Virus record (IMG/VR): IMGVR_UViG_3300048925_000317
Coordinates: 1 to 27,181 of that record
Reading direction: 5' to 3' (one strand)
Length of the DNA stretch: 27,181 nt
Source of the DNA: a virus
Within the stretch, counting starts at the first letter, position 1, and each line of letters begins with the position of its first letter. Shown one piece after another: positions 793 to 12,601 of this stretch. Below the pieces are notes generated by a model that saw nothing but the letters and a program-made list of their open reading frames with translations, did no database searches and had not been told where the DNA came from. The translations under genes were made by a program, and so were the position numbers.

Positions 793-1584
793 TTAGAACA
801 AGCCCGCAGGCTCTGCCTCTCTGTTCCAACTATAGATGACCAACTCTCCTCTCTCGACGCGGTTGGCGGCGCCTCCGACGGTGTAGTCAAGCTTGAGCGC
901 CTCCATCTCGTAATCCTTGAAGCATTCCCGGATGGCTGGGTGATCGTTGATGCTGATGACCGCCTTGCCTTTGATGGTCTTGAGCTTCCTGGCCATCAGC
1001 TCGTACTGCTCCCAGGGAAACGGTACGCCGTAGCCCTCGGTCTCCCAGTACGGTGGGTCTAGATAGAAGAGCGTGTGCGCGCGGTCGTAGCGGTCGACGC
1101 ATGCAGCCCAGTCCAACTGCTCTATATATGTGCCGGCTGCCAGGCGCAGGTGCGCGGCCGAGAGGTTCTCTTCGATGCGCAACAGGTTGATGGCTGGGGC
1201 CGTGGTGGCAGTGCCGAAGGTCTGGCCGGCCACCTTGCCACCGAAGGATTGCTGCTGCAGGTAGAAGAACCTGGCAGCCCGCTGGATGTCGGTCAGCGTC
1301 TCCGGCCTGGTGTCCTGGAGCCACTTGAATACCTGGCGTGACGTCAGAGCCCATTTGAACTGCCGCACAAATTCCTCCAGGTGATGGGTGACGACCCTGT
1401 AAAGATTGACCAGGTCGCCGTTGACGTCGTTCAGCACCTCGACGTCAGCCGGATGCCGTGCAAAGTAGACGGCAGCACCGCCAGCAAAGACCTCGACGTA
1501 GCAGCTATGCGCCGGAAAACGTTTGAGAAGCATGTCGATGAGCCGGCGCTTGCCGCCCATCCAGGGCACGATAGGGTTTGACAT
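793..1584 (-). CDS. dam: D12-class DNA N6-adenine methyltransferase
   Basis: A 263-residue protein that should transfer methyl groups from S-adenosylmethionine to adenine in DNA. The family marks are in order: PWMGGKRRL (residues 7-15), AdoMet-binding VFAGG (32-36), and the catalytic DPPY (176-179). Length is typical of Dam/D12 enzymes. The recognition sequence cannot be read from the sequence. No restriction endonuclease lies beside it, so it is an orphan enzyme, likely protecting phage DNA from host restriction or altering regulation. The start overlaps the last 80 bases of the com-like gene in another frame. The start codon has no Shine-Dalgarno sequence at normal distance (the nearest, GGGAG, is about 20 bases upstream) and lies in the loop of an inverted repeat, which suggests regulated translation. 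In Mu the same place is held by mom, an unrelated modification gene. Confidence 0.93.
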   Translation of the reverse strand: MSNPIVPWMGGKRRLIDMLLKRFPAHSCYVEVFAGGAAVYFARHPADVEVLNDVNGDLVNLYRVVTHHLEEFVRQFKWALTSRQVFKWLQDTRPETLTDIQRAARFFYLQQQSFGGKVAGQTFGTATTAPAINLLRIEENLSAAHLRLAAGTYIEQLDWAACVDRYDRAHTLFYLDPPYWETEGYGVPFPWEQYELMARKLKTIKGKAVISINDHPAIRECFKDYEMEALKLDYTVGGAANRVERGELVIYSWNREAEPAGLF

Positions 1585-1878: not shown

Positions 1879-2385
1879 TTATGCTGGCCAGCCTTGTGTC
1901 TCGTCGTATTCATCCAGCGCGGCCTGGCGCTCAGCCGGATCTTCGATCGAGGCAATGTCGTCGATGGCCTCATGGTGCGCACACTCTGCAGCGAAGCACG
2001 CCTGCACATGCAGGGCGATGGCTGCGGCAATGCCTTCCACCTCGGCCACCGCCAGCGTGGCCCAGCCGGATGCGGCCTTGAACTTGACCTGCGCCAGCCC
2101 GGCCAGGCGCGCATTGGCCACGACGGTGGTGATGCGGTTCTGGTCATCCAGTGCCGTGGCCACTTTGATGCCGCCGGGCAGAGTGATGCCGCCTGTTTCG
2201 ACTTCCCAGCGGTAGCGGGTAACGATCTCTTTCAAGTCGTCGGTGGTGATGGGTGGCGGAGGTGGATTGAGGTACGCCTCGACCTCCTTGGGCGTCATTG
2301 CCACAAGGCCGGGGCGCATCTGAGATTCAGGCACGCCATCGTCGTATTCCCAAGGGTTCCCCTCAGCGTCTTTGAAGTACTTCAT
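1879..2385 (-). CDS. Tail fibre assembly-type protein, DUF4376-like
   Basis: A 168-residue protein beginning MKYFKDAEGNPWEYDDG, a typical opening of tail-fibre assembly and fibre-associated proteins. A proline run near residue 40 separates it from a helical region (TTDDLKEIVTRYRWEVETGG) characteristic of DUF4376 proteins, which often contact or fold the tail fibre. The start at 2385 was chosen because it forms an ATGA overlap with the stop of the fibre gene; upstream codons in the same frame lie inside the fibre gene. Position directly after the fibre matches P2 gene G. It likely acts in the cytoplasm as a fibre chaperone. The assembly role rests on family and position. Confidence 0.75.
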   Translation of the reverse strand: MKYFKDAEGNPWEYDDGVPESQMRPGLVAMTPKEVEAYLNPPPPPITTDDLKEIVTRYRWEVETGGITLPGGIKVATALDDQNRITTVVANARLAGLAQVKFKAASGWATLAVAEVEGIAAAIALHVQACFAAECAHHEAIDDIASIEDPAERQAALDEYDETQGWPA

Positions 2386-4244
2386 TGCTTTGTTGTCTCC
2401 AGCCATGTGCTGATAGATGAAAAGATGCCGGAGGGGACTTTGTAAGTCTTCCACGGCGGCACAGTCGCTGTCACGGCCAGACTCAGACCCACCGTCGCCT
2501 GCGATGAGCCGACAAATGACTTCCCGTCAACTTCAAGGACAGCGGTTGCCTGGGGAACTGCGGCAGGACCAGACACATTGACCTCAATGTCATCGTCCGT
2601 GGAGTTCGTGTATGTGGTCCCCAGAATGCGTGTCGCAGCCAAATTGCGTGGGGCACGCTTGGATGGCTTGGCCTCAAGGCTTGACACCCGCGCGTCGATC
2701 ATGTCCATGCGCGCATTCAGTGCTGGCGCATTCAGATCACCCGCGTTTGTGACGCGGCCGTACATGCGGATCATCCAGATGCCGTACCAAGTACGGGGAC
2801 GGAACTCTCCTGTAACGGGGTCTGTCGTCGTTCCTGGTGGCAGGGCGGCTGATGCGTCCAATTGCAGAGAGGCGCCCTGATTTGTACCGCTGGTCGCATC
2901 CGGGAACGCGTTTGCAGTACGGAGCTTCACGGAGAGAGCACCACTTGCCGATAGACTCCCTTCGCCCAAAAATTGGTAGGCTGCACCTGGGTCTGATGAC
3001 ACCGAGCCCACGATGTTGCGCATCGCATCAATGACCGCGGTGCCTGGCTTTGCACCCGCAGGGTTGGCGCCAACACCGTAGAAGGCGCCCACGTTCCCCG
3101 GCTGCACGCCGTTCTTGTCCGGCGGCCGCATCCAGCTGGCGCCGTCGCCCAAGCTCCAGTGGGTCACGCGCTTGTAGGGGTCGGCCTGCCAGACAGCTTC
3201 CGTGCACGTGAACTGCGTTGCAGTCACTTGTGCCCGCATCGTGGGGTACATCAGGTCTGTCAGCTGCTGGCCGCTGGACTGCGTGTCACCTTCTGGCATG
3301 GCTGCTGCGAGACCAGCCCAAAGATAGGGGGTAAACCGTGGCATACCCGCTGCCGCCAAAGCACGGTCTACATACGCTGTGTTTGCAGGGCTCCGGCCGT
3401 TATCACCTTCCGGACGATCTGGGACGTTTTGCCCTCCAGTCCACTGGAATACGAGGGGCGTCGTGCCTACAACCACTTGGCCATCGGTTTTCAGCGTCCA
3501 CTGGGTGTCTGCGTTGACCGTCCCACTTTCCACCGGCACAGTGGCACCAGGATTGAGCTTGGAGCCACTGTCTGCATCCACCGCACGAGTCCACACCCCC
3601 GCTGCTGCAACGTAAACGCCATTGGCGGCCGTTGCAGCCTGGTCTTTCACCAGCACTCGATCGCCAGAAATAACGGCTATGCCGTCAATACTTTGCTCTC
3701 CTGAAAGGATGATCGGCGCCACCGTGGCTACACGCACGCTTTGTTTGTGGTCGCGCTTGGCCAGCTCGTCGCGGACATGGTCAATGACGAAAGACCGGGG
3801 AGCCATCACAACCGAGTTGTCGACCAGCAGCGTCACGCTGGCAGCATTGCTGGTCTGGAAAATAACCCGCACGTAGAACTGCTTACCGCTGCCGCTGGCC
3901 AGCAACGGCTTCACGCTTTCTGCGCATTTGGCCACGGCATAGAGGATGCCTGTATCCGTAAAGATGCCCATCGCACGGATCGTCCAGCCGCCAACGTCAT
4001 CCGGCAGCAAGCCTTCCGCCACCAGCCAGGTGGGGTTGTTGGGGTCTTGCAGCAATGCGTTGAGTGGGCGCCGGGGTGTGACCTCACGGCGCAATGCTGT
4101 CATCGCCGGGTCAGGGTTATAGACAGCGCCATTGCCGTCACAAATCCCGTAATGTGTGAGCGTGATAGGCTTGTTCTGGGCCTTCTGCTGAGCTTCATAG
4201 GCAAGCCCAGCATTTGTCAGAATGGTGTAGTAGTCCTGCGCCAC
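2382..4244 (-). CDS. Tail fibre protein (P2 gpH-like)
   Basis: A 620-residue fibre that should bind the host surface. Residues 1 to about 165 resemble the tail-collar/DUF3751 module that attaches P2-type fibres to the baseplate. Residues about 168-272 form a recurring phage-fibre module (SIDGIAVISGDRVLVKDQ, then NGVYVAAAGVWTRAVDAD). The middle is specific to this phage, and the C-terminal end (from about 505) starts with a short coiled coil and a beta-rich tip that probably carries receptor specificity. Translation starts at a GTG at 4244 with GGAG 7 bases upstream, one base after the gpI stop. The fibre assembly gene follows with a 4-base overlap. The host receptor cannot be predicted. Confidence 0.9.
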   Translation of the reverse strand: MAQDYYTILTNAGLAYEAQQKAQNKPITLTHYGICDGNGAVYNPDPAMTALRREVTPRRPLNALLQDPNNPTWLVAEGLLPDDVGGWTIRAMGIFTDTGILYAVAKCAESVKPLLASGSGKQFYVRVIFQTSNAASVTLLVDNSVVMAPRSFVIDHVRDELAKRDHKQSVRVATVAPIILSGEQSIDGIAVISGDRVLVKDQAATAANGVYVAAAGVWTRAVDADSGSKLNPGATVPVESGTVNADTQWTLKTDGQVVVGTTPLVFQWTGGQNVPDRPEGDNGRSPANTAYVDRALAAAGMPRFTPYLWAGLAAAMPEGDTQSSGQQLTDLMYPTMRAQVTATQFTCTEAVWQADPYKRVTHWSLGDGASWMRPPDKNGVQPGNVGAFYGVGANPAGAKPGTAVIDAMRNIVGSVSSDPGAAYQFLGEGSLSASGALSVKLRTANAFPDATSGTNQGASLQLDASAALPPGTTTDPVTGEFRPRTWYGIWMIRMYGRVTNAGDLNAPALNARMDMIDARVSSLEAKPSKRAPRNLAATRILGTTYTNSTDDDIEVNVSGPAAVPQATAVLEVDGKSFVGSSQATVGLSLAVTATVPPWKTYKVPSGIFSSISTWLETTKQ

Positions 4245-8453: not shown

Positions 8454-9364
8454 CAAATCAGCCTGGTCACGACCTTGCCGGCCAGTTTGGTGATGGCCGG
8501 AGCGGCCGAAGACAATGCATCGCTGGCCGTCGAAACCTGGCCCGCCAGGTAGTCGATGCGGCCCACCACCGAAGTCACATTGCTCAGCGACAGCGAACTC
8601 TGTCCGCTGCGGATAGCTCCCAGCGCGTTTGTGGCCGACCGCACGATCCCAGCGGCTTCCGGCAACTGGCTGCTCAGCCCAGCCAACGCGGGGGTAAGTG
8701 AGCCCAGAGGCTTGGCGATCTGCCCCAGTCCTGCCATAAGCGATGGCACCCGACCCAGTGCAGCCACGGGATTGCTACTCAGTTGTTGCGCCAGGCGCAC
8801 CCCATCGGTCACTACGCGCAATGCACTCTGCGCCTGGTTGGCCATAGTCACAGCCTGTCGAACGCCATCCCGCACGGTGCTGGCCACGCTGGCCAGACCT
8901 GATACAGGAGAAGCGCTCAGCAGACCAGAAACTGCACCGGCGGGGGCCAGCTTTGGCCTTACGGCAGGAGGCGGGAGCGGGTTCAGCTTGTCTCCCACGT
9001 ACTCACGCAAGGTAATGCTGGCGTCCAGGCTCAGCAGCGTGCCGGCTTTGTCGGTCTCCCGGCTGGTGGCTTGCACCTCGGTCAACACAAACCAGCCCTT
9101 GTAGTCCCCATTACCCAGCACAAATGCCATGGCCATGTGCGACTTCTTGGCCGCCTGCAGCTTGATCAGCTCGGCCTCAGGGTCGCAGTAGAAGACGTGA
9201 AAGCACAGGTCAATCCGAAACTCGTCCAGCTTTTCGCCAATGAACTGCAGCCGCGGCTTTCCTTCAATCAGCGCATGCTCAGCATAGTCCGCGCCAAACT
9301 GCACCTGCATGCCATCAAAGTAGGTGATCAGGTCGAACTGGATATCTCCCAGCAGCGCATACAT
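8453..9364 (-). CDS. Tail protein U with extended C-terminus
   Basis: A 303-residue protein. Residues 1-140 match the P2 gpU family (MYALLGDIQFDLITYFDGMQ, then KPRLQFIGEKLDEFRIDL), a tail terminator or completion protein. P2 gpU is about half this length; here a C-terminal extension rich in alanine, serine, valine and leucine follows a proline linker (PLPPPAVRPK). Such long U-like proteins occur in BcepMu-like tails. The ATG at 9364 has GGAGGAG 6 bases upstream and overlaps the tape measure stop by one base. The role of the extension is unknown. Confidence 0.88.
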   Translation of the reverse strand: MYALLGDIQFDLITYFDGMQVQFGADYAEHALIEGKPRLQFIGEKLDEFRIDLCFHVFYCDPEAELIKLQAAKKSHMAMAFVLGNGDYKGWFVLTEVQATSRETDKAGTLLSLDASITLREYVGDKLNPLPPPAVRPKLAPAGAVSGLLSASPVSGLASVASTVRDGVRQAVTMANQAQSALRVVTDGVRLAQQLSSNPVAALGRVPSLMAGLGQIAKPLGSLTPALAGLSSQLPEAAGIVRSATNALGAIRSGQSSLSLSNVTSVVGRIDYLAGQVSTASDALSSAAPAITKLAGKVVTRLI

Positions 9365-11832
9365 CAATAGCTCCTCCGCGCCTTTCGCTCCACCACCCGG
9401 TCAATCAGCCGCTCCAGCTCCTGCAGAGACATCTGCACGCCCTCATTCAGTTGGCTGCGAACCGCTTCTGGGGTTCCGGCCGCCAGCTGGATGTTCGGGC
9501 TGAAGTGAATCACCATCCCACCGCCACCTCCCATGCCTGCAGTACCGCCACCTCTCTGAGTAGGTGTCAACTTCTGATAGGACTGCTGCGTCGAGCTGGC
9601 CAGATCCATTTGCCAGGCCCCGGCCGCCTGCTTGGCCATGCCACTCACGGCTTTGCCGGCCAGGCTGGCCGAACGGTTCACGCCCAGCGCTGCGCCCTGG
9701 GCGATGTTGTCGCCAAAGCCCATGAACACCCGGCTGGGCGACTTGATGCCAAGGGTGCTGGTGAACCAGCCCTTGATGCTGCTGCCCATGCCCACAATGG
9801 CATCCCGCGCCGCCGTGAGCTTGGAGGTCACCCCGCTGACCAGGCCGTTGATCAGGTCCGCTCCTGCAGACATGAACTTGGTTTTCAGGCCTACCAGCCA
9901 GTTGTAGCCCGCCAACGTGGCAGCCTTGACCTTGTCCCAGTTCTTGTAGACGAGAAATGCTGCCACGCCGATCGCTGTCACCGCCAAGCCAATCGGGTTC
10001 ATCAACATCGCCCGGCCGAGCCACAGCACTGCCTGGCCGGCCAGGCGCAATCCGGAGAGAAGTGCACCACCAAGCACGCGGCCCAGCAGCAGCGCGCCTT
10101 GGCCTAGCAGCTTCAGGGGCCCCAGAAACGTCATGGCCAGGCCTTTGCCAAACAGTAAGGCATATCGGCCCACCGTCATCAAGCCACTGACGACCGACCT
10201 CAAGCCGGCGATCGCAGGCGCAAATGCCCCGGCTTGCCACAGTCCGCGCAGCATGGTCCAGCGTGCACTGGCTCCCAGGGCAACAGTGCGCATCGCCGTC
10301 AGCGGGCTCAGTACCAGGTTCAGCCCGTATTTCAGCCCGATGAAGCCCAGCTTGCCGGCCAGTAGGCCTGCCGTCAGACCGATCACCCCTTTGATCAGGC
10401 CAGGGTGCTCTTTGGCCCAGTTGCCAAACGCGGTCACCACCGGGCGGATTTCCTGGCCGAATTCAATCAGCGGCGGCAACAGTACCTCGCCAATGGTCAG
10501 GCCAACATCGGTCAGTCCAATCTTGAAGGCCTTGAACTGCTCCGTGGCAGTCTCCATGCGCTTCTTGTAATCCTCGTCCAGCAGCCCTTTATCCGCCGCG
10601 CCCATCGCGCCGTCCTGGATGTCCTTCATCTCGCCCATGTTGGCGATCGCTGGCTTGATGAAGTTCATGGCCTGCATATCCTGGAACAGGTCACCCAGTT
10701 TGTAGGCCTCGGCCAGGCGCTGCACAGCCGCCTTGCGCTCGCTCTCGTCTTTGATAGCCAAGGCTTTCTGCATCTCGCCCGCAGCAGCAGGCGACTTCTT
10801 CCCCATGTAGTCGGTGATGATGCTGAGCATGGACTGCATGGGCGTCATCCCCTGCTCACGCAGGTTCATCATGCTTTTCTTGAGGTCAATGCCCGCCTTC
10901 TCAAAGTCCTTCAGTGTTTCCGGGGCGGTGAGCTTTGCCAGGAAGTTGCGAAAATTGTTGGCTGCCTCGTCATTCGAGCCAGCGCCTTTGCGGGCAATCT
11001 GCAGGGCAGCGCCGATCTCGGCCACAGCCTCCTTGCCCGTGACACCCAGTGCTTGAAACGATGGAGAAAGCGACGGCAGCCACTTGGCCATGTCCCGGAT
11101 CTCAAACTGTCCACGCTTGCCGGCGTAGGCCAGCATATTCAGCGCGCCTTCAAATCCGTCTTCACCGATTTGGAGGTTGTCTTTGAGGGCCAGGGCCACG
11201 CTTCCCAGGTCGTCCATGCTGGCCCGAGTGCCCGTTGCAGCTTTGGACATGATGGGCGCATACCGCTCCAGCGCATTGGCATCCTGAATACCACCAGCTA
11301 CCAGGACGCCAATGCCACGCTGGATATCCGACTGGGTCTGATTCCACTGCACGGCCGACTCACGGATGGCTCCGCCAAGCTTCGCTTCCTGCGCTGCGCT
11401 GAATTCGCCTGTGATTGCCGTGTCCCGCAGCTTGTCCTGGAAGTCGGCGGCCACCATGACCGATTTCACCACTGGGGCGCCAATGGCTGCAGCCGTCCCG
11501 ATGGTCTCCATCGCTTGGCTCCGCATTTCCGACCGGCCATTGCGCAAAGCGTCCCCTCTGGCCATGGAGGCAGTCAGTTGATCCTGCTTCAAGCGCAGGC
11601 GGTCCATGGTCAGGCCCAACTGGTCATACTGCCGGCGCAAATCGCCAAGGCTTTTCCCTGGACGCGTCAGCGCTTGGGCCATGATCATGCCCAGGCGCTG
11701 CTGCTTGCTGCTCAGTTGCTCTGTGACCGAGCCGATGCGCTCCAGTGTCGAACGAGCCGAGCCGAAGGCTGCATTGAAGCTGCTGGCCAGCACTGAGCCA
11801 ATCTTGACGCTGATGAGCAATTCATTGGCCAT
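9364..11832 (-). CDS. Tail tape measure protein
   Basis: An 822-residue protein, the longest in the window, which sets tail length and helps DNA entry. It opens with a helical and coiled region (LSSKQQRLGMIMAQALTRPGKSLGDLRRQYDQL), contains a TP901-type core (AAATGTRASMDDLGSVALALKDNLQI and the following region, about residues 190-400), and has strongly hydrophobic segments at about 470-660 including WLGRAMLMNPIGLAVTAIGV. The C-terminal part has a glycine-rich stretch. At about 0.15 nm per residue a tail of about 120 nm is expected. The start at 11832 has AAAGG 9 bases upstream. The chaperone gene precedes it, but separated by an unusual 260-base gap that holds a gene on the other strand. Confidence 0.95.
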   Translation of the reverse strand: MANELLISVKIGSVLASSFNAAFGSARSTLERIGSVTEQLSSKQQRLGMIMAQALTRPGKSLGDLRRQYDQLGLTMDRLRLKQDQLTASMARGDALRNGRSEMRSQAMETIGTAAAIGAPVVKSVMVAADFQDKLRDTAITGEFSAAQEAKLGGAIRESAVQWNQTQSDIQRGIGVLVAGGIQDANALERYAPIMSKAATGTRASMDDLGSVALALKDNLQIGEDGFEGALNMLAYAGKRGQFEIRDMAKWLPSLSPSFQALGVTGKEAVAEIGAALQIARKGAGSNDEAANNFRNFLAKLTAPETLKDFEKAGIDLKKSMMNLREQGMTPMQSMLSIITDYMGKKSPAAAGEMQKALAIKDESERKAAVQRLAEAYKLGDLFQDMQAMNFIKPAIANMGEMKDIQDGAMGAADKGLLDEDYKKRMETATEQFKAFKIGLTDVGLTIGEVLLPPLIEFGQEIRPVVTAFGNWAKEHPGLIKGVIGLTAGLLAGKLGFIGLKYGLNLVLSPLTAMRTVALGASARWTMLRGLWQAGAFAPAIAGLRSVVSGLMTVGRYALLFGKGLAMTFLGPLKLLGQGALLLGRVLGGALLSGLRLAGQAVLWLGRAMLMNPIGLAVTAIGVAAFLVYKNWDKVKAATLAGYNWLVGLKTKFMSAGADLINGLVSGVTSKLTAARDAIVGMGSSIKGWFTSTLGIKSPSRVFMGFGDNIAQGAALGVNRSASLAGKAVSGMAKQAAGAWQMDLASSTQQSYQKLTPTQRGGGTAGMGGGGGMVIHFSPNIQLAAGTPEAVRSQLNEGVQMSLQELERLIDRVVERKARRSY

Positions 11833-11854
11833 AGACCCAGACCTTTGCTATCCT
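11825..11854 (+). promoter_or_regulatory. Candidate promoter for the antisense membrane gene
   Basis: TTGGCC (11825-11830) and TATCCT (11849-11854) are each 4 of 6 to the sigma-70 consensus, with an 18-base spacer. Transcription would start near 11861, on the ATG itself, so the message would be leaderless. The -35 box overlaps the start codon of the tape measure gene on the other strand. No Shine-Dalgarno sequence is present, which agrees with leaderless translation. Confidence 0.35.
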
Positions 11855-11860
11855 TGAAAC

Positions 11861-12112
11861 ATGTTTGCAAAAACCGCACTCACCACTAGCCGGACGCTCT
11901 ATGTGCTCCTGGTTGCCCTCGGCCTGATTTGGCTGGCTTGGGTGTGCCTGGCTAATATGTCGCTGGGCATGGCTGCAGCGGTGTTTGTGGTGGCAGGGCT
12001 GCTGATGGTCGCCGTCCTGGCGCCTGTGGCTGCTGCACTGGCCGGCCTGGTGGGAGTGCTGGTGGGCGCGGTAGCTGCACTGCTGCAGCTGGCTACCCGG
12101 CGCGGCGCTTGA
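11861..12112 (+). CDS. Small two-helix membrane protein, antisense in the tail operon
   Basis: An 83-residue very hydrophobic protein: helix 1 about residues 13-33 (LYVLLVALGLIWLAWVCLANM), helices 2/2' about 36-77 (alanine-, valine- and leucine-rich), with a basic end (ATRRGA). It is the only convincing plus-strand gene and fills the gap between chaperone and tape measure, which are normally adjacent in P2-type tails. Its last 20 bases overlap the E' frame on the other strand. The opposite frame across the same DNA reads as a histidine/glutamine/serine-rich peptide without structure, so the plus-strand reading is preferred. Family unknown. A small membrane protein with its own promoter in a structural operon fits a moron, for example superinfection exclusion; this is inference. 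Confidence 0.6.
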   Translation: MFAKTALTTSRTLYVLLVALGLIWLAWVCLANMSLGMAAAVFVVAGLLMVAVLAPVAAALAGLVGVLVGAVAALLQLATRRGA

Positions 12113-12486
12113 TTTCGCGCTCAGCGCATTCAACCCAACGCCAGTAGTCGTCCATCTCCAGCGCGTCGATCTCAGACGGTTGGATTTTTAGAATCACCAG
12201 CAGAATTTCGTCCATCTGCTGCAGGACTTCCCCCGCTCTCGCCTCGCATGCGACGAAAGCAATCGGTCAATTGAGTGTTGTCTTCGATATCCAGCAAGTC
12301 CAGATCTTCCACCGGCACGCCGGTCAGACGGGAGAACAGCAAGTCCTCTATCTCAACGTCGTCCTTACCGTGTTTCTGCGCCAGTTTCATATCCTTTCGT
12401 GTGGCACGGCGCATCGTCAGCTTGCTGATCGTCTCGCCTGTGGCGCTCGTGAAAGGATGCTTGAGTGTGATTTCGATATCGCTCAT
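12093..12486 (-). CDS. Tail assembly chaperone, frameshifted long form (E+E')
   Basis: The short chaperone frame overlaps a second frame that is open from before the G-run at 12230-12234 to a stop at 12093-12095. The extension contains MDDYWRWVECAERE and a basic end, as expected of a phage E'-type extension that binds the tape measure. Going from the first frame to the second needs a -2 (or +1) shift. The site reads AGC GGG GGA AGT in the zero frame: after GGA, slipping back two bases re-pairs on GGG, or GGG may slip forward one base. The product would be 131 (-2) or 130 (+1) residues. Mu is known for a -2 shift at the equivalent gene, so -2 is preferred. Confidence 0.8.
12172..12486 (-). CDS. 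Tail assembly chaperone, short form (E, Mu gp41-like)
   Basis: A 104-residue protein of the phage tail assembly chaperone family found in Mu and P2 relatives (SDIEITLKHPFTSATGETI, LTMRRATRKDMKLAQKHG, then LFSRLTGVPVEDLDLLDIED). It keeps the tape measure soluble while tube subunits polymerise around it. The start at 12486 is preferred over an in-frame GTG at 12522 because AGGA lies just upstream. The end of the protein after residue 80 (GESGGSPAADGRN) is low in complexity and is replaced in the frameshifted product. An inverted repeat ends directly at the start codon. Confidence 0.9.
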   Translation of the reverse strand: MSDIEITLKHPFTSATGETISKLTMRRATRKDMKLAQKHGKDDVEIEDLLFSRLTGVPVEDLDLLDIEDNTQLTDCFRRMRGESGGSPAADGRNSAGDSKNPTV

Positions 12487-12523
12487 GGTGTGTCCTGCGG
12501 TTGATGAAGAAATAAGACACACC
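12487..12523 (-). promoter_or_regulatory. Inverted repeat abutting the chaperone start codon
   Basis: GGTGTGTC (12487-12494) and GACACACC (12516-12523) are perfect 8-bp arms around a 21-base loop. In the mRNA the 3' arm ends at the ATG of the chaperone, with the AGGA Shine-Dalgarno at its edge. Pairing would reduce chaperone translation. Confidence 0.5.
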
Positions 12524-12572: not shown

Positions 12573-12601
12573 AAAAAGGCCCACCGAAGTGGGCCATTTT
12601 T
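12573..12601 (-). terminator. Rho-independent terminator after the tail tube gene
   Basis: In the mRNA GGCCCAC-TTCG-GTGGGCC forms a perfect 7-bp stem with a UUCG tetraloop (12578-12595) followed by five T. On the other strand the stem is followed by ATTTTT, so it may work both ways. It lies 14 bases after the tube stop and should reduce transcription into chaperone and tape measure, matching the need for many more tube and sheath subunits. Confidence 0.85.

Follow-up and report, generated by a model that had tools for sequence, protein, structure and literature searches.

Among described systems, gp15 of phage HK97 is the product of a known exclusion moron and is predicted to reside in the inner membrane (PMC10883804). 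It has 62 residues with one hydrophobic segment, falls in phrog_5031, and is encoded between a frameshifted chaperone pair and the tail tape-measure protein (TMP) gene, on the same strand as the late genes; the tail of HK97 is non-contractile. Imm of the lytic phage T4 has 83 residues and two hydrophobic stretches, its gene lies beside replication genes, and its annotation states that superinfecting DNA is left in the periplasm. Tab of phage JBD26 and Tai of phi80, also small phage-defence proteins encoded by prophages, act on tail assembly; Tab, again of 83 residues, targets the tape measure and is encoded between terminase genes (PMC10884400), and Tai is mostly encoded upstream of the packaging module. 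Exclusion morons of this small size are an already known kind of prophage gene.

The locus described here lies in a 27.2-kb virus record, the whole of which was analysed and is referred to as the window. Genes for the head, for lysis and for a P2-type contractile tail are present, almost all of them on the minus strand, and a short gene runs against them between the tail chaperone and the TMP. The relevant features are:

9364-11832, minus strand: TMP gene, 822 aa (phrog_28, phrog_5690, PhageMin_Tail), the divergent neighbour
11825-11830, plus strand: TTGGCC, earlier candidate -35, with an 18-base spacer to TATCCT
11846-11854, plus strand: extended -10 promoter element TGCTATCCT; transcription is predicted to start on the A of the ATG at 11861
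11861-12112, plus strand: gene for a very hydrophobic 83-aa two-helix protein of the phrog_18301 family, antisense to the late operon
12093-12215, minus strand: E' part of the tail chaperone (phrog_8286)
12172-12486, minus strand: E tail chaperone (Phage_TAC_7, E=5.3e-21; phrog_166)
12578-12595, both strands: hairpin flanked on either side by T-runs, situated between E and the tube gene and terminator-like on both strands

The sequence-only reading had drawn attention to an 83-residue plus-strand frame in a 260-base gap, overlapping the end of E'. Its coordinates are correct: the gap between the TMP gene and E' runs from 11833 to 12092, is filled by the frame at 11861-12112, and the frame shares 20 bases with the 3' end of E'. 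In phage P2, E+E' and T overlap and there is no gap at all, so P2 has no such slot. E and E' overlap at 12172-12215 in different frames, as expected for the chaperone frameshift of P2-type phages; the ATG of E was read at 12486, and its longest ORF begins at a GTG at 12522. With a GC content of about 58% over 11800-12049, the gene does not stand out from its surroundings (52-65%). A DNA methyltransferase gene (phrog_56; 796-1584, minus strand) is present in the distal tail region, near a tail fibre gene (2385-4244).

The window gene resembles that of HK97 gp15 in encoding a small predicted membrane protein between a frameshifted chaperone pair and the TMP, but differs in its strand, in the contractile tail type and in a product of 83 residues with two helices. 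Imm shares its length and its two hydrophobic stretches but is more charged and less hydrophobic. No homology to a characterised exclusion protein was found in the comparisons with gp15 and Imm: gp15 gave no BLASTP alignment with the 83-aa protein, and the hhalign probability was 0.1% in both cases.

The 83-aa protein matches phrog_18301 (E=6.8e-14) over residues 1-80, aligned with positions 1-80 of the 85 in the profile; no function is recorded for this family, and its PHROGs entry does not give the genome position of the members. A profile built from 15 members, with ATG preferred where present, was run over viral contigs, a single phage record and bacterial genomes from several genera. This gave 47 distinct genes including that of the window, i.e. 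46 further homologues, with Pseudomonas, Burkholderia, Chromobacterium, Dechloromonas and Comamonadaceae/Acidovorax among the host genomes. In the genome loci that were checked the gene was antisense and, wherever the two neighbours could be identified, flanked by the TMP and by E'; E' homologues adjoin it in nine of these loci. The frame is kept in place in related phages, so the sequence-only reading passed the one check among its refuting conditions that could be computed, a frame lost from relatives. The homologues span phages of several host genera, and the neighbours, where examined, were always of the same tail type. The median pairwise dN/dS was 0.27 and all 203 usable pairs, which are not independent of one another, gave values below 1. 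Invariant residues in the family include Y14, W27, C29 and P55. There can be hardly any doubt that the 83-codon frame is a real gene. It is a rare one per genome: a census of 400 genomes from the family of the Acidovorax relative found it in that one genome only.

In the aligned family residues 12-75 are uncharged and both ends are positive. AlphaFold2, run with an alignment of 37 sequences, gave a two-helix hairpin (helices 2-32 and 35-82; mean pLDDT 81, pTM 0.47), in which the second helix, with 48 residues, is rather long to cross a membrane just once. The protein is probably located in the inner membrane with both charged ends in the cytoplasm. The conserved frame, the dN/dS and this model all agree with the original description of an antisense gene for a two-helix membrane protein. 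A fold search returned nothing from the PDB and nothing significant from BFVD, defence models did not match the protein, and NCBIfam and Pfam gave only weak, chance-level matches to unrelated membrane families.

The promoter first put forward for the gene, TTGGCC and TATCCT separated by 18 bases, survived only in its second half. TATCCT, at 11849-11854, is followed by 6 nt and then the ATG at 11861, so it would occupy -12 to -7 of a transcript that starts on the A of the ATG. When 28 distinct 40-nt upstream sequences were compared, TATCCT was found to belong to a conserved extended -10, TGCTAYSCT (TGNTANNNT), which in 27 of them is separated from the ATG by exactly 6 nt; in the other (L091) TATGCT lies 7 bases before the next in-frame ATG. 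TTGGCC was discarded as a -35, as it is not conserved in relatives and is the complement of TMP codons 1-3 (Met-Ala-Asn). No conserved -35 was seen in the 28 upstreams, conservation falling sharply beyond about -18, and a simple -35/-10 consensus scan of the window misses the promoter of the 83-aa gene.

The -10 lies at a constant distance from the ATG (6 nt, or 7 in L091), while the interval between the ATG and the TMP start varies from 18 to 38 nt. This spacing, fixed to the ATG of the 83-aa gene only, indicates that the element belongs to that gene and not to the TMP, and the suggestion that it is solely part of the ribosome-binding region of the TMP was rejected on the same ground. A Shine-Dalgarno match of at least four bases at usable spacing was found in none of the 28 upstreams, and the combination expected of a leaderless gene, a -10 at -12 to -7 and no Shine-Dalgarno, was present in 27. 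Leaderless initiation generally requires ATG. The start codon is ATG in all 47 homologues, which is weak evidence because the profile search favoured ATG. From these sequence features the gene is very probably transcribed without a leader, its RNA starting on the AUG, as the sequence-only reading had proposed. Expression in the lysogen also seems likely.

The hairpin at 12578-12595 sits 465 nt downstream of the gene and is a possible end for the antisense RNA; terminator-like sites in the window numbered two, with 1.1 expected by chance. It possibly sets the ratio of tube to chaperone expression, and in HK97, too, a putative terminator follows the major tail gene. A simple terminator downstream of the gene was found in only 8 of 45 loci. 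A further antisense moron is found among the tail genes of HK97 (NC_002167, 14715-14975): it encodes Gp23, annotated as a 'reverse moron product', and has a putative terminator to itself.

To survey the slot, TMP sequences were used as bait and 100 distinct TMP-start neighbourhoods were collected, which are related and do not represent 100 independent cases. The slot was counted as filled by an antisense ATG ORF that encodes 65-120 aa, includes two or more hydrophobic segments and starts 10-75 nt upstream of the TMP. This was the case at 57 of the 100 TMP starts, compared with 0.8% at random positions in the same loci. At least three groups of proteins occupy the slot: the window type, a Burkholderia type and an enterobacterial type.

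The Burkholderia-type group matches phrog_20219, which is classed 'moron, membrane protein', and has a profile link to the window type (hhalign 91%). Like the window gene, the phrog_20219 group is of the two-helix type and in the same antisense slot; unlike it, the group forms a separate PHROG, and in some members a Shine-Dalgarno-like site is present but a -10 beside the ATG is not, although much of the Burkholderia-type group is leaderless-like. The enterobacterial-type group has a partial match to phrog_25743 and no convincing profile link to the window type. Most of its members have Shine-Dalgarno-like sites and TANNNT about 27-35 nt upstream, i.e. a leader. Its E. coli A35 representative is annotated as a hypothetical protein (WP_032217816.1), and this counterpart was found in 2 of 5,426 E. 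coli genomes. Alignment-based scans of the enterobacterial and Burkholderia-type groups revealed no conserved stretches. A conserved start codon and a hydrophobic protein persist in the slot even where the sequence has diverged.

The slot is also empty in some relatives. The phrog_20219-type gene is cleanly present in three loci (L034, L036 and L053) and cleanly absent from two others (L035 and L038), where about 284 bases are replaced by about 10; L034 and L035 share about 87-93% identity in their flanks, whereas L038 is more distant (81-85%). Among 298 Pseudomonas genomes there were 12 close TMP loci, eight with a window-type gene and four without. The eight carriers are the genomes with the closest TMPs (55-57% identity); the four gene-less ones (51-55%) have a gap but no gene. 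In two of these four (L155 and L156) a TACGCT remnant was seen beside the TMP. We read this as a deletion scar, although it could also reflect a role of the motif in TMP expression. Promoter-like (TACGCT) or start-region-like sequence next to the TMP, as if the gene had been deleted, was noted in the gene-less loci L026, L029, L155 and L156. An explanation of distant gene-less Pseudomonas TMPs as tailocins, with no DNA to inject, was dropped after a capsid gene was found beside the tail genes in one of two loci checked; the other was not decisive.

The criteria for prophage morons listed in PMC2920897 include insertion between adjacent phage genes with absence from some relatives, and transcription control of their own. 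The gene lies between E' and the TMP gene and is absent from some relatives. Such optional presence is moron behaviour. As candidate signals for transcription control of its own there are the conserved extended -10 fixed to its ATG and the hairpin downstream.

The best functional reading, to which we give an even chance, is that the 83-aa protein is a prophage moron for superinfection exclusion. This is based on a small protein probably in the inner membrane, a promoter opposing the late operon, the optional presence of the gene, the slot shared with HK97 gp15, and the length shared with T4 Imm. In the lysogen, the extended -10 promoter at the TMP start would fire away from the late operon, and the RNA, beginning on the AUG, would be translated without a leader to give a very hydrophobic helical hairpin in the inner membrane. 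There the protein would most likely stop the DNA and/or the TMP of a related superinfecting phage from crossing. The tape measure would be the likeliest determinant of which phages are excluded. During lytic growth, opposing late transcription across the locus would override the promoter.

That the TMP is the target we consider somewhat less likely than not. Distances between the 83-aa proteins follow those between the N-terminal 160 residues of the TMPs (r 0.93 over 25 loci, with a partial correlation of 0.83 once sheath and tube are controlled for). The partial correlation was 0.61 with the distant C-terminal part of the TMP (22 loci; controls sheath, tube and U) and 0.31 with E', which is short and noisy. 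This tracking of the TMP fits recognition of the TMP, but much of it can be accounted for by linkage, since the gene adjoins the part of the TMP gene that encodes the N-terminus.

Long antisense ORFs are common in the window, which has 202 ORFs of at least 50 aa, so a frame of 83 codons is by itself unremarkable and might be a spurious product of GC-rich DNA. However, it fills a gap and is not inside another gene; frame, dN/dS and promoter are conserved, the slot is occupied far above the random level, and the E. coli counterpart in the same slot carries a protein annotation. A spurious ORF is, on this evidence, scarcely credible. The locus could instead act mainly as a cis-antisense RNA or an opposing promoter that lowers expression of E/E' or the TMP from the prophage, the protein being secondary. 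The promoter does overlap the TMP start region, and a transcript could run through E' and E as far as the hairpin, but selection acts on the amino-acid sequence, the start codon and a hydrophobic protein are retained despite divergence, and simple downstream terminators are scarce. Since purifying selection acts on the product as a protein, the antisense regulator that the sequence-only reading had offered beside exclusion is disfavoured as the main role, and is very improbable. As a side effect, E/E' may be subject to antisense regulation, since read-through would reach the hairpin.

The protein might instead block a later step than DNA entry, such as tail assembly through binding of the TMP, in the manner of Tab. 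Tab is constitutively expressed from its prophage has the same length, and targets the tape measure (PMC10884400), and the tracking of TMP variation would suit such a blocker; on the other hand, a protein without charge over residues 12-75 is expected in the membrane and not in a cytoplasmic assembly pathway, and the window gene adjoins the TMP whereas Tab is encoded elsewhere. We consider this improbable. A different role in the membrane, in lysogenic fitness, as a stress- or toxin-like peptide, or as a lytic helper of lysis or injection, is unlikely but carries more weight, small hydrophobic proteins having many roles and the chance-level database matches being to unrelated membrane families. 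It would leave unexplained the position beside the TMP in many phages and the optional presence; the antisense orientation speaks against joint expression with the late genes, and the holin, endolysin and spanin genes are located elsewhere in the window.

The exclusion reading can be extended, though we regard this as tentative and rather doubtful, to the whole slot as a general immunity locus of contractile-tailed temperate phages. Many of the divergent two-helix proteins there would inhibit the TMP-dependent DNA entry of their own phage and be linked to their target; betaproteobacterial and Pseudomonas phages would express them without a leader, enterobacterial phages with one. In the open-licence literature that was searched, no description was found that treats as a system the antisense slot, the broad range of two-helix proteins in it and a promoter fused to the start codon. 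The mostly unannotated slot can now be recognised as one where contractile-tailed phages carry membrane morons, and its natural variants, some with gene-less relatives, are suited to tests of TMP recognition and of the block to DNA entry by small membrane proteins. With its promoter fused to the start codon, the gene appears to be a natural and conserved example of leaderless expression, for which the seemingly leadered enterobacterial versions provide a built-in comparison. The gene is easily missed: the deposited annotation of Pseudomonas phage Komp_PAO1_1 omits the homologue and has in its place a 42-aa ORF on the wrong strand (L001 4039-4167, equivalent to PQ287647.1 11850-11978).
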